Of a DNA stretch of 64,000 nucleotides, positions 55,933-64,000 are shown piece by piece. This DNA comes from Aurantiacibacter arachoides (lineage in GTDB: Bacteria > Pseudomonadota > Alphaproteobacteria > Sphingomonadales > Sphingomonadaceae). Each line of letters begins with the position of its first letter. Positions within the stretch are counted from its first letter, which is position 1. The position numbers were made by a program, and so were the translations under genes. Under the pieces are notes generated by a model that was given only the letters and a program-made list of their open reading frames with translations, ran no database searches and had not been told where the DNA came from. The DNA lies in assembly GCF_009827335.1 (NCBI RefSeq), contig NZ_WTYH01000001.1, positions 186,001-250,000 of the forward strand. Direction: 5' to 3'.

Positions 55933-58275
<2,343 letters not shown>

Positions 58276-59346
58276 TCATCCGCACTGGGCGTGGTGGAGC
58301 AGCTTCTGATCGGCCAGCACCAGCGCCATCATCGCCTCCACCACGGGCGTGCCGCGAATGCCGACGCAGGGGTCGTGACGGCCTTTCGTGACGATTTCGG
58401 CGGCGTTCCCCTCCCGGTCGATCGTCTCGACGGGAGTCAGGATCGAACTTGTCGGCTTGAAGGCGACGCGGCAGGTGACCGGCTGGCCCGTGCTGATGCC
58501 GCCCGCGATGCCGCCTGCGTGGTTCGCCGCGAACCGCACGCCGCCCGCGCCATCGGGGCGCATGGCATCGGCATTGTCTTCGCCCGAGTTCGCAGCGGCT
58601 GCAAAACCGTCGCCGATCTCCACACCCTTGACCGCGTTGATGCTCATCATCGCGGCGGCGAGTTCGGCATCGAGCTTGGCGTAGAGCGGCGCACCCCAGC
58701 CCGCAGGAACGCCCGTCGCCCGGCAGCCGACCACCGCGCCAAGCGACGACCCGGCCTTGCGCGCCGCGTCGACGAGTGCCTCCCAGCGCACCGCGGCATC
58801 CGCATCGGGGCACCAGAACGGGTTGTTGCGGATCGCGCCTGCATCGAAGCGGGCCGGATCGATGGCATCGCCGCCGATCGCCTCCACGTATCCGGTGATC
58901 GCCACCTCGGGTATGACGAGCCGCGCGATCGCGCCGGCCGCCACCCGTGCGGCGGTTTCGCGCGCGGAACTGCGCCCGCCGCCGCGATAGTCGCGAAACC
59001 CGTACTTGGCATCGTAGGCGTAGTCGGCGTGACCGGGGCGATAGGCCTTGGCGACGTCCGCATAATCCTTGCTGCGCTGGTCTGTATTAGCGATCATCAG
59101 GCTGATGGGCGTGCCGGTGGTCTTCCCCTCGAACACGCCGGAGAGGATCTGCACCTCGTCCGCCTCGCGCCGCTGCGTGGTATAGCGGTTCTGGCCGGGC
59201 TTGCGCGCGTCGAGAAAGGGCTGGATGTCCGCCTCCGCCAGGGCAAGGCCCGGCGGGCAGCCGTCGACCACCACGCCCAGCGCGGGTCCGTGGCTTTCCC
59301 CCCAGGTGGTGAAGCGGAATATGCGTCCAAAGGTGTTCCAGCTCAT
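58276..59346 (-). CDS. aroC: Chorismate synthase
   Basis: Makes chorismate from EPSP in the last shikimate step, needing reduced FMN. 356 residues. Signature regions [55 protein letters not shown] and [17 protein letters not shown] are complete. The start is the ATG of [10 protein letters not shown]. It is divergent from ruvA. Confidence 0.97.
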
Positions 59347-59459
59347 GGAACGCGGGTCTGGCGCAGGCGTGGGCCGCTGTCCAGCGGGGCTGGACTGTTC
59401 CCGCTTTGACCGCCACACGGTGCGCTCAAGCAGCAAAGCGGTAGCGCCGAAACAAATCC

Positions 59460-60077
59460 ATGATCGCGAAACTGACAGGCACCCTGGACGAGACCGGCGC
59501 GGACTGGGCGGTTATTGCCGTGGGCGGGGTGGGCTACCTCGTCCACTGTTCCGCCCGCACGCTGGCCGCGCTGAGTGCAATGGGGCCAGAACGGGGCGGC
59601 CAGTGCACCGTCTTCACCGACTTGCAGGTGAGCGAGAACGACATGCGCCTGCTCGGCTTCGCGGACGGCGGGGAGCGCGACTGGTTCCGCCTGCTGACAG
59701 GCGTGCAGGGCGTGGGATCGAAGGTGGCGCTCGCCATCCTCTCGGCGCTGTCGGCAGGCGAACTGCGCGATGCCTGCGCCGCAGGCGATGCCGCCAGCGT
59801 GGCGCGGGCGCAGGGCGTGGGGCCGAAGCTGGCCGGGCGCATCGTCAACGAGCTGAAGGACAAGGAGGGCGGTATGCCCGGCGGCAGTGGACTGGCGATG
59901 GGCATCGCGGTGAGCCACGCGGGCGGCGCGAGCGCCGATGCCGTCAGCGCGCTGCAGAACCTCGGCTTCAAGCCCGCCGTCGCGGCGCAGGCCGTTGCGC
60001 GCGCGCAGGAGGAACTGGGCGAAGGCGCAGGCGAGGGCGACTTGATCCGCGTGGCGCTGCGGAGGGCGGCGGGGTGA
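59460..60077 (+). CDS. ruvA: Holliday junction DNA helicase RuvA
   Basis: Tetrameric Holliday-junction-binding subunit of RuvABC, 205 residues. OB-fold N-terminus [16 protein letters not shown]...[10 protein letters not shown], HhH motifs [16 protein letters not shown] and [16 protein letters not shown], and the C-terminal RuvB-binding domain ([16 protein letters not shown]). ruvB normally follows directly; here about 435 bp with an inverted-repeat cassette lie between. Confidence 0.96.
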
Positions 60078-60096
60078 GGCGTTGCATTACACCCGC

Positions 60097-60131
60097 CCGT
60101 CATCCTGAACTTGTTTCAGGATCCATCGCGC
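60097..60131 (+). repeat. Left inverted repeat of the GIY-YIG cassette
   Basis: 35 bp starting CCGTCATCCTGAACTTGTTT. It matches the reverse complement of 60467-60501 at 33 of 35 positions and holds the small palindrome CCTGAA-cttgt-TTCAGG. Confidence 0.9.
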
Positions 60132-60451
60132 ATTTGGTGCGGCGCCAGCGGCGGAAGGCCGAGGCCCGGAGCCAGGTCGTGCCAATCGGGATTATCGCTT
60201 TCGATCAGGTTGATCTTCCACCGCCGGTGCCAACGCTTCAATTGCTTCTCGCGCGCGATGGCCTCATCCATCGTGGCGAGCAGTTCGTATCGCACCAGGG
60301 TCTTTACGCGATAGCGGCTGGTGAAGCCGGGCACCGCGTCCGTGCGGTGCTGCCAGACGCGCGCGATCAGATCGCTGGTGACCCCGATATACAGCGTGCC
60401 GTAAGCCCCATTGACAAGAATGTAGACGCAGGGTTGGCGTTCTTGCCGCAT
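60116..60451 (-). CDS. GIY-YIG (URI-type) endonuclease family protein
   Basis: 111 residues from the ATG of MRQERQPCVYIL (a start 15 codons upstream lies inside the right repeat). Motifs: VYIL near Y10, YIG at 21-23 (TLYIGVTSDL), R31, HR at 35-36, E68 (AIAREKQLK) and N87. This is the small single-domain UvrC/Intron/Rim-type nuclease common in sphingomonads. It runs against ruvA and ruvB. Its role may be in moving or cutting its own repeats; no activity can be proven from sequence. Confidence 0.88.
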   Translation of the reverse strand: MRQERQPCVYILVNGAYGTLYIGVTSDLIARVWQHRTDAVPGFTSRYRVKTLVRYELLATMDEAIAREKQLKRWHRRWKINLIESDNPDWHDLAPGLGLPPLAPHQMRDGS

Positions 60452-60466
60452 GGCCCGGTGTGTGGG

Positions 60467-60501
60467 GCGCGATGGATGCTGAAACAAGTTCAGCATGACG
60501 G
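60467..60501 (-). repeat. Right inverted repeat of the GIY-YIG cassette
   Basis: 35 bp that read, on the minus strand, CCGTCATGCTGAACTTGTTT and onward. The two bases that differ from the left copy are the two partners of one stem pair (C-G there, G-C here), so the hairpin is kept. Confidence 0.9.
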
Positions 60502-60513
60502 TAGGGGACTGGC

Positions 60514-61542
60514 GTGACCGACCAGCCCATCCACACCCCCCAGCGCCAGCCGGACGACCCGGACGCCGCGCTGCGTCCGAAGTCGCTGACCGAGTTCATC
60601 GGCCAGGAGGCGGCGCGCGATAACCTGCGCGTGTTCGTGGAGGCCGCCCGCGCGCGGGGCGAGGCGATGGACCATGTCCTGTTCTTCGGACCGCCGGGGC
60701 TGGGCAAGACCACGCTGGCGCAGATCGTTGCCAAGGAACTGGGCGTCGGTTTCCGCGCCACCAGCGGGCCGGTCATCGCCAAGGCGGGCGACCTTGCCGC
60801 CCTGCTCACCAATCTCGAGCCGAACGACGTGCTCTTCATCGACGAAATTCACCGCCTCAATCCCGTGGTCGAGGAGGTGCTCTACCCGGCGATGGAGGAT
60901 CGCGCGCTCGACATCATCATCGGGGAGGGTCCGAGCGCGCGCAGCGTGCGGATCGACCTGCCACCCTTCACGCTGGTCGGCGCTACCACGCGGCAGGGGC
61001 TGCTGACCACGCCGCTGCGCGACCGCTTCGGCATCCCGGTGCGGCTGATCTTCTATACCGAGGCGGAGCTGACCGAGGTCGTCACGCGCGGTGCGCGGCT
61101 GCTGGGCGTGGCCATGGCGGCGGAGGGCGCGCGCGAGATCGCCCGCCGCAGCCGGGGGACGCCGCGCGTCGCCGGACGATTGCTGCGCCGGGTGCGGGAT
61201 TTCGCCCAGGTCCGCGCCGCAGGCGAGGTGACAGCCGAGGTGGCCGACGAGGCGCTGACCCGGCTGGAGATCGACGCGCTGGGCCTCGATGCGATGGATC
61301 GGCGTTATCTCACCATGATCGCCGACATCTACAAGGGCGGCCCGGTCGGCGTGGAAACGCTCGCCGCCGGCCTAGCCGAGCCGCGCGACACGGTGGAGGA
61401 GGTGATCGAACCTTTCCTCATCCAGCTTGGCCTTGTCGCCCGCACCGCGCGCGGGCGCTGCCTCAACGACGCGGCATGGAGCCACCTTGGCCTGCCGCAT
61501 CCGAACGGGAGCCAGACGGGCCTGTTCGATTCGGGCAAGTGA
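60514..61542 (+). CDS. ruvB: Holliday junction DNA helicase RuvB
   Basis: AAA+ motor of branch migration, 342 residues. [21 protein letters not shown], Walker [16 protein letters not shown], Walker [12 protein letters not shown], sensor [17 protein letters not shown], and C-terminal winged helix with [12 protein letters not shown]. The start is GTG 60514; its Shine-Dalgarno (TAGGGGA) lies directly next to the right repeat of the cassette. Confidence 0.96.
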
Positions 61543-61612
61543 GGCGGCTAGCCGCCGCTCTCCTGCTCCAAGTGCGCCGCTTTCGGTTCCATTCCGGGAC
61601 ATACTGACCCGA

Positions 61613-61637
61613 ACGCGCGGAATCGCGTGCTTTTTTT
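61613..61637 (+). terminator. ruvB terminator
   Basis: ACGCG (61613-61617) pairs with CGCGT (61624-61628), followed by GC and T7. A 14-bp perfect palindrome GGCGGCTAGCCGCC also lies right at the ruvB stop (61543-61556). Confidence 0.65.
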
Positions 61638-61775
61638 GGCCATCGCCCTGCAAAAACAGCACTTAGGCCATTGCCCGGACAGGCTTTGCGCGTCTCTTTG
61701 GCAGGAACCGGTAAAGGCCGTCGGCATCGCTGAGGATGCTGCAGGTCCGATCCAGGAATTCGAGAGAGACTTTTC

Positions 61776-62822
61776 ATGTCCGTACGCATGGCCATCGCCA
61801 AACTGAGCATCGCCGCCGCCGGCGGGGCGATCATCGGCGGGGGCGCGGTCCACGTGGCCGAGCCGCAGACCTCGCAGGTCCGCTACAAGTCCGACAAGGA
61901 CGATGCGCAGGTCGCCCTGATCGACGACAAGACCGAAGGCACTGCGCGCCGGGCCATTCCGCCGCGGCCACGCGAGCAGCTTCGCGCCCGCCGCACGATC
62001 GAGCGCGAGTGTTGCGAGGAAACGGAAGAATACGCGCTGGCCGGCGTGCCCTTGCCGCTTCCGCCCCTGCCCGCCGCACCGGTGCGCGGTGGCGGCGGCG
62101 GCCAGCCGATCGTGGTTGGCGGCACCGGCGGCTTCGGTGGCGGCTTTGGCGGCGGGTTCTTCGGTGGCTTCTTCGGCGGCGGCGGGGCGAGCGCCGGGGC
62201 GACGGCGGCGGTGGACCTGAGCACCACCACGACCACCACATCCAGCGGAACGCCGGGCGCCACCAGCGGCGATATCATCATCGACATCGACAACCAGAAC
62301 TCGACGACCACCAGTTCGGGCACCATCACCAGTTCGACGGGCGAAGTGTCCGTTTCCACCAGCACCGGGGCGGTCTCGACGTCTACCGGGCAGGTTTCCA
62401 CCAGCACCGGATCGGTGACCAGCTCCACGGGCGAGGTCTCGGTATCGAGCACCACGACCTCGGGGAACGTGACCAGTTCGGGCGACATCAACCAGAACCA
62501 GGAACAGAACCAGGGCCAGCAGCAGCAGCAGGGCCAGCAGCAGTCGAGCACGACCTCGACCTCGACGTCCACATCGGGCGATGTCAGCACCTCGACCAGC
62601 ACCAGCACGTCGACCAGTTCCAGCACCTCCACGTCGAGCTCGACCAGTTCGTCGACTTCGGGCGACCTGCCTCCGCCGGTTCATCCGCCCACCAGCACGG
62701 GCGACATCCCGCCGACGGAGGTTCCCGCGCCGGGTATGCTCCTGCTGTTCGGTGCGGGCGCGGGTGCGGTGTTCCTGCGGCGCCGCCGCAAGGGTGGCGA
62801 GGCACAGCTGGCCGCCGCCTAG
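61776..62822 (+). CDS. Ser/Thr-rich secreted protein with a VPAPG (PEP-CTERM-like) tail
   Basis: 348 residues of low complexity. N-terminal signal-like helix (IAKLSIAAAGGAIIGGGAVHV), a Cys pair (ERECCEE), a Gly-rich block with FGGGFGGGFFGG, then long Ser/Thr-rich stretches and a Gln-rich patch. The C-terminus at 316-348 has VPAPG, a hydrophobic helix LLLFGAGAGAVFL and RRRRK, the layout of PEP-CTERM exosortase sorting signals. Likely a processed, possibly glycosylated surface or matrix protein. The exosortase gene is not in the window. Followed by a terminator. Confidence 0.65.
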   Translation: MSVRMAIAKLSIAAAGGAIIGGGAVHVAEPQTSQVRYKSDKDDAQVALIDDKTEGTARRAIPPRPREQLRARRTIERECCEETEEYALAGVPLPLPPLPAAPVRGGGGGQPIVVGGTGGFGGGFGGGFFGGFFGGGGASAGATAAVDLSTTTTTTSSGTPGATSGDIIIDIDNQNSTTTSSGTITSSTGEVSVSTSTGAVSTSTGQVSTSTGSVTSSTGEVSVSSTTTSGNVTSSGDINQNQEQNQGQQQQQGQQQSSTTSTSTSTSGDVSTSTSTSTSTSSSTSTSSSTSSSTSGDLPPPVHPPTSTGDIPPTEVPAPGMLLLFGAGAGAVFLRRRRKGGEAQLAAA

Positions 62823-62847
62823 GGTATAGACAGACAACGGGGGGGAG

Positions 62848-62874
62848 GGGCGGCTCGCGAGGGCCGCCCTTTTT
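62848..62874 (+). terminator. Terminator after the VPAPG-tail protein gene
   Basis: GGGCGGC (62848-62854) pairs with GCCGCCC (62863-62869), followed by T5. Confidence 0.85.
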
Positions 62875-62993
62875 CGTTCAGGCAGGCAGGTTCCAGCCAG
62901 ACCAGGGCAAATGCCCGGGCGTGCGTGCCGAAAATCCATTCAGCCTCGGCGCGCGCAACGACCCCTGCCGTTGCGCGCACCCGGAGCTATCGG

Positions 62994-64000
62994 TCAGGCG
63001 GCGAGCTTGCGCAGCACGTAGTGCAGGATGCCGCCGTTGCGGTAGTATTCCATCTCGTTGGCGGTATCGATCCGGCACCGGGCGGTGAAGCTGGCGCTCG
63101 ACCCGTCGGCGCGCGTGACGTCGACCTCGACGTCCTGCCGCGGCGACAGCGCGTCCAGCCCGCGAATGGTGAACGTGCAATCCCCGTCGAGGCCCAGCGT
63201 CTGGCGGGTTTCACCATCCTGGAACTGCAGCGGCAGCACGCCCATGCCGATGAGGTTGGAGCGGTGGATGCGTTCGAAGCTTTCGACGATCACCGCCCGC
63301 ACGCCCAGCAGGATCGTGCCCTTCGCCGCCCAGTCGCGACTGGAGCCGGTGCCGTATTCCTTGCCCGCGACGACGACCAGCGGCGTGCCATCGGCCTGGT
63401 GCTTCATGGCGGCATCGTAGATGGCCATCTGCTCACCCTTGTAGGTGGTCACCCCGCCCTCGACGCCGGGCACCATCTCGTTCTTGATGCGGATGTTGGC
63501 AAAGGTGCCGCGCATCATCACTTCGTGGTTGCCGCGGCGGCTGCCGTAGGAATTGAAGTCCGCTCTCTCCACGCCGTGCTCCATCAGGTAGCGGCCGGCG
63601 GGGCTGTCGGCCTTGATCGAACCGGCCGGGCTAATGTGATCGGTGGTCACGCTGTCGCCCAGCACGGCGAGCGGCCTTGCAGCGACGATGTCCTCGACCG
63701 CCGAGGGTTCCATCCCCATGCCGTCGAAATAGGGCGGGTTGGCGACGTAGGTGCTGTCCGCGTTCCAGCCGTAGGTGTCGCTCGCATCAACCTGGATCGC
63801 CTGCCAGTGCTCGTCGCCCTTGTAGACGTCGGCGTAGCGCTTTTCGAACATGGAGCGGTCGATATTGGCGGCGCGATTGCGGGCGACCTCCTCGTTGGAG
63901 GGCCAGATGTCAGCCAGCATCACGTCGTCACCGTCCTGGTCCTGCCCGATCGGCGTGGTGGTGATGTCCTGCGTGACGGTGCCCTTCAGCGCATAGGCGA
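62994..64000 (-). CDS. acnA: Aconitate hydratase A, C-terminal part (cut by the window edge)
   Basis: Iron-sulfur TCA-cycle enzyme that isomerises citrate to isocitrate. The frame is open to the window end, so the 5' part with most of the cluster ligands lies outside. Seen here: [56 protein letters not shown] and [17 protein letters not shown], all of the AcnA swivel domain. The C-terminal end is [19 protein letters not shown]. Confidence 0.96.

Follow-up and report, generated by a model that had tools for sequence, protein, structure and literature searches.

The window, the whole stretch of 64,000 nucleotides from Aurantiacibacter arachoides that was analysed here, carries ruvA and ruvB on the plus strand, with a small open reading frame (ORF) of the GIY-YIG nuclease type on the opposite strand in the gap between them. 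This ORF is bounded by two inverted, hairpin-forming repeats of 28 bp each. The features are as follows:

59460-60077, plus strand: ruvA, flanking context outside the element
60098-60125, plus strand: left CGTC-tagged REP, made of CGTC and an 8-bp stem, a 5-nt loop and a CCA tail, with the tag outward; contains the stop codon of the ORF
60116-60496, minus strand: GIY-YIG nuclease ORF, 126 aa long if read from the upstream ATG and 111 aa if the ATG at 60451 is the start
60473-60500, minus strand: right CGTC-tagged REP, tag outward; contains the upstream in-frame ATG of the ORF
60514-61542, plus strand: ruvB, flanking context outside the element

The inverted arms, taken as 40 nt each (60092-60131 and 60467-60506), are complementary at 90%. 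The unit measures 375 bp from start to start and about 400 bp as a whole, and like insertion sequences it has terminal inverted repeats. A sequence-only reading of this DNA had described 35-nt arms around a gene that runs against ruvAB and ends within the repeats, and the sequence bore this out: 33 of 35 positions agree, the ORF lies on the minus strand with ruvA and ruvB both on the plus strand, the left arm contains the stop codon (60116-60118), the right one the upstream in-frame ATG (60494-60496). The protein-database entry for the nuclease (P0001, 111 aa) begins 15 codons later, at 60451, and both the 126-aa form, starting at the repeat-borne ATG, and the 111-aa form are possible. The neighbours within window positions 55933-63998, among them a peroxidase-family gene, chorismate synthase and a gene with an aconitase C-terminal domain, form an ordinary chromosomal context. 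A Ser/Thr-rich ORF at 61776-62822 has no Pfam match, and we take its end, PAPGMLLLFGAGAGAVFLRRRRK, to resemble a PEP-CTERM sorting signal.

The two differences between the arms are compensatory. They lie on bases that pair with each other in the stem (ATCCTGAA/TTCAGGAT in one arm, ATGCTGAA/TTCAGCAT in the other), and the fold of an 8-bp stem and a 5-nt loop is therefore preserved in both arms (shuffle z of -3.17 and -3.20). With an unpaired CGTC, a stem starting with AT and a CCA tail, both arms fit the rules of the CGTC-tagged REP superfamily (CGTC tag, stem of 8-9 bp starting with AT, loop of 4-5 nt, CCA tail) set out by Di Nocera, De Gregorio and Rocco (2013, PMC3733652). In that paper, CGTC REPs are described with an unpaired CGTC tag, an 8-bp stem starting with AT, a 5-nt loop and a CCA tail, arranged in inverted pairs; they occur mostly in Alphaproteobacteria, in some of which they are abundant, and include Neisseria dRS3 and two Rickettsia conorii RPE types. 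The same paper places REPs mostly downstream of coding regions, states that the CGTC superfamily members "apparently lack a dedicated transposase", and leaves their spread open in its conclusions. Members of the superfamily are also expected in many genomic copies, a feature that this genome, with two copies, lacks and that some relatives show (237 copies in genome G066). Searching this genome and ten relatives with a degenerate pattern, we found both variable stem pairs to be Watson-Crick in 97 of the 103 zero-mismatch repeats among the matches listed, copies from one genome being non-independent, against 35.5 expected if the two sides were independent, which argues that the hairpin is maintained.

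A genome-wide search for the arm, proposed by the same reading as a check, found the repeat confined to the two arms rather than scattered without association to the gene. The 31-nt core has two matches in the window at up to three mismatches, with a maximum of 0 across 100 shuffles. Across the complete genome, a single contig of 2,941,591 bases, the 14-nt core was found at exactly two places when up to one mismatch was allowed, and these are the arms. The A. arachoides copy is a lone unit, with no other copies of its repeat in the genome. The sole other GIY-YIG domain found in this genome lies within a 654-codon frame.

Conserved Tyr, Arg and Glu are the active-site residues of GIY-YIG enzymes. 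In an alignment of 33 sequences, Y36, G38, R46 and H50 of the window's protein are invariant, and Y25 and E83 are conserved in at least 90%. The ORF matches PF01541 (4.9e-12, 46.4 bits, cut-off 22.6) over profile positions 2-78 of 78, and this whole-domain match and the conserved active-site residues are both among the features expected of GIY-YIG superfamily members. In 18 hand-picked close pairs, some of which share a locus and one of which has a saturated dS, dN/dS ranged from 0.07 to 0.46, indicating that the nuclease gene is under purifying selection. The AlphaFold2 model has a mean pLDDT of 83, with residues 1-17, largely encoded by the repeat, below 50. Foldseek placed UPF0213 proteins first among the closest solved folds, followed by Slx1 and the UvrC N-domain; its best match had an E-value of 3.6e-3 and a probability of 1.00, none passing 0.001. 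The sequence profile matched 1zg2 at 7.4e-13 and 1ywl at 4.3e-10.

Several other identities were considered and rejected. The lone Rfam match (E 0.95) was far under the threshold for a known RNA family, PADLOC matches to known defence proteins were weak (2.8e-4 and 5.5e-4), a phage family found no match in PHROGs, and there was none in NCBIfam. A Y1 (RAYT-type) transposase as mobiliser was rejected for the 15 of 18 searched genomes that gave no match, including this one (searched with PF01797), G071 and the repeat-rich G066; Y1 matches are present in the other three, G093, G095 and G110.

Homologues were searched for with the repeat-encoded ends of the protein omitted. The protein core has a match in 87 of 119 family genomes (as many as 11 in a single genome), and an alignment search at E<=1e-3 gave matches in 125 of 240 class and 187 of 299 phylum genomes, remote GIY-YIG genes included. 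The loci examined were 30 family loci, 100 of the 120 other listed family places, and class and phylum loci that were the best-scoring ones rather than a random sample. Out of 185, four without a usable central match (L207, L227, L242 and L248) and three with short flanks were removed, leaving 178; one locus (L125, identical to L215) is counted once in the family and once in the class set, three members of the class and phylum sets (L215, L255 and L256) belong to the same family as the window, and further genomes of its class are part of the phylum set.

A strict CGTC hairpin lies within 250 bp of the gene core at 101 of these 178 loci (family 72/127, class 17/27, phylum 12/24), compared with 6 of 178 at 250-500 bp (four in the family, one in the class and one in the phylum set). 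Control patterns within 250 bp were found at none of the 178 loci when the tag was CTG or CAG or the first stem base was T, and at 3 when the tail was GG. Where hairpins stand on both sides of the gene (64 loci), the tags point outward in 50, in the same direction in 8 and 4, and inward in 2. The remaining 77 loci have no strict hairpin within 250 bp, and many of them have similar-looking, non-standard inverted repeats. The flanks of the homologues thus show the REPtron feature of an enzyme gene flanked by matched REPs, with CGTC-type hairpins far in excess of the controls. This demonstrates, at the level of sequence, that the gene family is coupled to CGTC-type repeats, in line with the earlier suggestion of a nuclease-coupled palindromic element similar in concept to REP/RAYT pairs.

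A more general measure was less useful. An inverted-repeat score of at least 15 was reached at 133 of 178 loci and at 0 with a shuffled flank; the direct-orientation control reached it at 66 of 178, with hairpins matching themselves, so that this score was set aside as weak and replaced by the strict-hairpin count. In a separate set, 31 of 39 loci scored at least 15 (judged by eye), including L039, which is not REP-like; this set was excluded from the rates because two of its search peptides were derived from the repeat. None of 20 remoter homologue loci has a strict hairpin. Next to homologues in records that bear the labels Bacteroidota and Ignavibacteria (L037, L040 and L034) there are inverted repeats with the same central stem-loop as in the window; of these, L034 and L037 are metagenome bins and L040 has a differing tag. 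We also observed that the remote class homologues L283, L284, L286, L287, L288, L295 and L296 lie between inverted repeats of a different appearance, CCTCATCCTGAGCTTGTCGAAGGATGAGG and variants, which are possibly a CCTC-tagged variant of the same superfamily.

Repeat type and protein were then compared. The edit distance between arms averages 1.79 within a unit; when arms of different units in one genome are compared, it averages 7.95 (14 units from 6 genomes, each with at least two units having both arms strict; permutation p 0.0036). Genome G087 has four units with four different stems, and G050 has two units of one type. Of 100 loci, 72 share their repeat type with the locus of the closest protein from a different genome, against a shuffled mean of 18 and maximum of 36, and over the same number of loci protein and repeat distances are correlated (Mantel rho 0.25, p 0.001), the type bins being defined by us. 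These comparisons demonstrate that repeat type and protein co-vary in the sequences examined, and the tracking of the protein by its repeat further supports the REP/RAYT-like concept with a GIY-YIG enzyme.

The window's repeat type is present in 59 of 119 family genomes (reversed pattern, 0/119). Where a close homologue (E<=1e-31) is present, 30 of 31 family genomes have this type, versus 29 of the 88 others, uncorrected for kinship. Within genera, genomes carrying the gene have more repeats than those without it, with wins, losses and ties of 8-0-1 at E<=1e-35, 10-0-1 at 1e-31, 8-1-2 at 1e-28 and 5-1-2 at 1e-20; subtracting by hand the two arm copies of each carrier changes the contrast at 1e-31 to 8-1-2. 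There are exceptions: 4 of 32 family genomes without a homologue match still have the repeat (G018, G034, G070 and G074), with 22 copies in G070, and G020 and G108, with 11 and 16 copies, have only distant homologues (1.8e-16 and 3.8e-19). A second repeat type is found in 22 of 119 genomes (reversed control, 0), in 12 of which it lies beside a listed homologue, as compared by eye from the coordinates.

This second type provided a view of units in several copies. Genome G071 has 18 repeats of the second type, all arranged in pairs; of the 9 pairs, 5 bound gene-length units, one of them (L308) frameshifted. The units L300 and L301 share a 137-bp deletion and L302 and L303 a 47-bp deletion, lengths that were taken from the pair spacings; neither is a multiple of three, so the ORF is broken. 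Dispersed copies with a common broken gene mean that the break came before the duplication, the pattern expected if derivatives are moved in trans. Judging by these copies, whole and internally deleted units do occur as dispersed copies in one genome. The homology between the G071 copies extends about 24 to 112 bp past the repeats, so the stretch from REP to REP may not be the exact unit; the junctions lie in partly similar flanking motifs, among which no target-site duplication was established. A motif, TCCGCAATGTCGGCG..., was seen just outside several G071 units (flanks of L302, L303 and L306-L308), and also at L344 and L345, which have neither a strict repeat nor a gene match; it is a second repeat family that may serve as insertion target.

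REP pairs without a gene were observed as well. In the 20 pairs considered (L260-L279), the distance from start to start is often 62-63 bp, about six helical turns, the others listed ranging from about 30 to 119, and the spacers are unlike in sequence. In genome G006, the four gene-less pairs examined share with the gene-bearing unit (L060) a CCAG following the stem; in most other genomes this position reads CCAT.

The sequence-only reading had proposed looking for empty sites between ruvA and ruvB in related genomes, and such sites exist. Within the approximately 1.5 kb seen upstream of ruvB, the gene is present in 8 of 30 family loci, seven times antiparallel to ruvB and once (L097) parallel, and in 6 of 30 genus loci, with L074 and L077 common to both sets. 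One strict repeat or more accompanies every occupied ruvB locus, including all six of the genus. In 5 of the 30 family loci ruvA and ruvB are at most 21 bp apart or overlap, with other DNA in the rest, and at the genus locus L330 the two genes touch; ruvA lay outside the stretch in 5 of 30 family and 4 of 30 genus loci. One of these family loci is L082 (G016), where a homologue some 1.6 kb upstream of ruvB also falls outside the stretch. The 85-bp gap of L075 holds what appears by eye to be a degenerate single repeat. In a sister species (L313), one of the six genus loci with the gene, RuvB is 96% identical and the nuclease only 77% identical, and at L340 a 68% identical nuclease stands beside ruvB with both arms of another repeat type. 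Occupied and gene-free ruvA-ruvB sites thus both exist in the genomes compared, with the gene absent in most relatives seen. Since few of the listed homologue places lie near a listed ruvB place, the ruvAB location appears secondary. Two side observations concern the same region: by eye, a gene-less REP pair of L082 apparently lies within the 5' portion of ruvB, flanked on both sides by a ruvB-like start, and in L077, L083 and L088 the gap holds similar small ORFs with the look of a signal peptide in place of the nuclease, so that the site seems variable.

We propose that the element is, with fair probability, a REPtron-like mobile unit, in which one GIY-YIG nuclease gene is bounded by two outward-tagged CGTC REP hairpins. 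The association and the dispersal are well supported; that the nuclease drives the movement we infer. It would recognise the tag-hairpin of its own repeat and nick beside it, releasing or copying the unit, and this nicking would act in cis to mobilise the unit with the gene, and in trans to mobilise repeat pairs without one. Enzymes of the GIY-YIG class hydrolyse DNA and are not known to transfer strands, and we know of no GIY-YIG chemistry that by itself joins DNA; insertion would therefore be expected to resemble homing, with the repair or replication of the host completing it. Possibly the nuclease is the missing partner by which a widespread repeat class spreads. A broader proposal, which we hold to be evenly balanced between right and wrong, is that CGTC REPs are the ends of a new class of mobile elements, with a GIY-YIG nuclease as sole protein, which would move itself and gene-less pairs in trans by hairpin nicking and host repair, independent of transposase chemistry, and which would have related units in the records labelled Bacteroidota and Ignavibacteria.

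Other explanations were weighed against this proposal. Another enzyme could move the CGTC REP pairs, with the GIY-YIG gene as trapped cargo, as the lack of any known strand-transfer chemistry in this enzyme class and the repeat-rich genomes with no or only distant homologues (G070, G020 and G108) would allow. We consider this unlikely: gene and repeat type co-vary both across and within genomes, the gene is under purifying selection, a unit of about 400 bp leaves little space for a further enzyme, and the search for alternatives, limited to the Y1 class, left 15 of 18 genomes without a candidate. Somewhat less likely again is a homing-type drive, in which the nuclease would cut gene-less REP pairs and repair would proceed from a gene-bearing copy, amounting to gene conversion between existing repeat sites, with the repeats themselves not transposed. 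Gene-less pairs are indeed oriented like the gene-bearing unit, homology extends past the repeats, and the L340 nuclease beside ruvB has both arms switched to another type; however, the spacers of the 20 gene-less pairs differ in sequence, and the shared-deletion pairs of G071 stand at dispersed sites, which fits transposition at least as well.

That the repeats serve the host, as terminators or mRNA-stabilising hairpins, with the nuclease as a housekeeping enzyme processing hairpins or branches, seems to us very improbable. The position of REPs mostly downstream of coding regions, as given in PMC3733652, and the presence of Slx1 and the UvrC N-domain among the closest folds would be consistent with such a role, but presence is patchy (the protein core in 87 of 119 family genomes), the number varies up to 11 matches per genome, and near-identical copies and deletion derivatives are dispersed. 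CGTC REPs are abundant in some alphaproteobacteria according to the same paper, and a small gene could by chance lie among common repeats; this we rejected as next to negligible, given that the core occurs only twice in a 2.94-Mb genome, at both ends of the gene, and never in the shuffles, and that the distance and tag controls gave 6/178 and 0/178. The REPtron-like mobile unit remains the preferred reading.

A matched nuclease makes the spread of CGTC REPs directly testable with one small protein and one hairpin. If the proposal is true, the REPtron design has been reached by a second, unrelated enzyme class, and there would be an explanation for the repeat-encoded peptide, e.g. MLNLFQHP, with which many small "putative endonuclease" proteins start. 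We found no paper in the open-access literature linking GIY-YIG genes to REPs; preprints and most subscription papers were beyond the scope of this search, and a prior mention is possible. The term "GIY" is absent from the main text of PMC3733652 and from the available parts of the HUH survey (PMC6006769), the TnpAREP paper (PMC8266576) and the Bradyrhizobium paper (PMC5082802), and the available part of RepRanger (PMC12306157) has neither "nuclease" nor "endonuclease".

The unit can be compared with several known systems. By sequence, the closest solved relatives of its enzyme are the small GIY-YIG proteins of the UPF0213 type from Bacillus halodurans and E. faecalis (1zg2 and 1ywl), which are also the two best Foldseek matches. 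The Slx1 and UvrC N-terminal nucleases share the GIY-YIG fold with the window's protein, and Slx1-Slx4 processes branched DNA, according to the title of 6seh. The CGTC REPs of PMC3733652 have the same tag, stem, loop, tail and inverted pairs as the window's arms; no dedicated enzyme is reported for them there, whereas the window's repeats bound a GIY-YIG gene and are present in two copies only. RAYT/TnpAREP REPtrons differ from the window's unit in having a Y1 HUH transposase instead of a GIY-YIG nuclease (PF01541) and GTAG instead of CGTC REPs, and for TnpAREP cleavage of REPs in vitro has been published (PMC8266576). The GIY-YIG domains of Slx1 and UvrC are, for their part, pieces of larger repair proteins. 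The RAYT REPtrons and the GIY-YIG units have in common a single enzyme gene between tagged hairpin repeats, together with gene-less pairs in related genomes.
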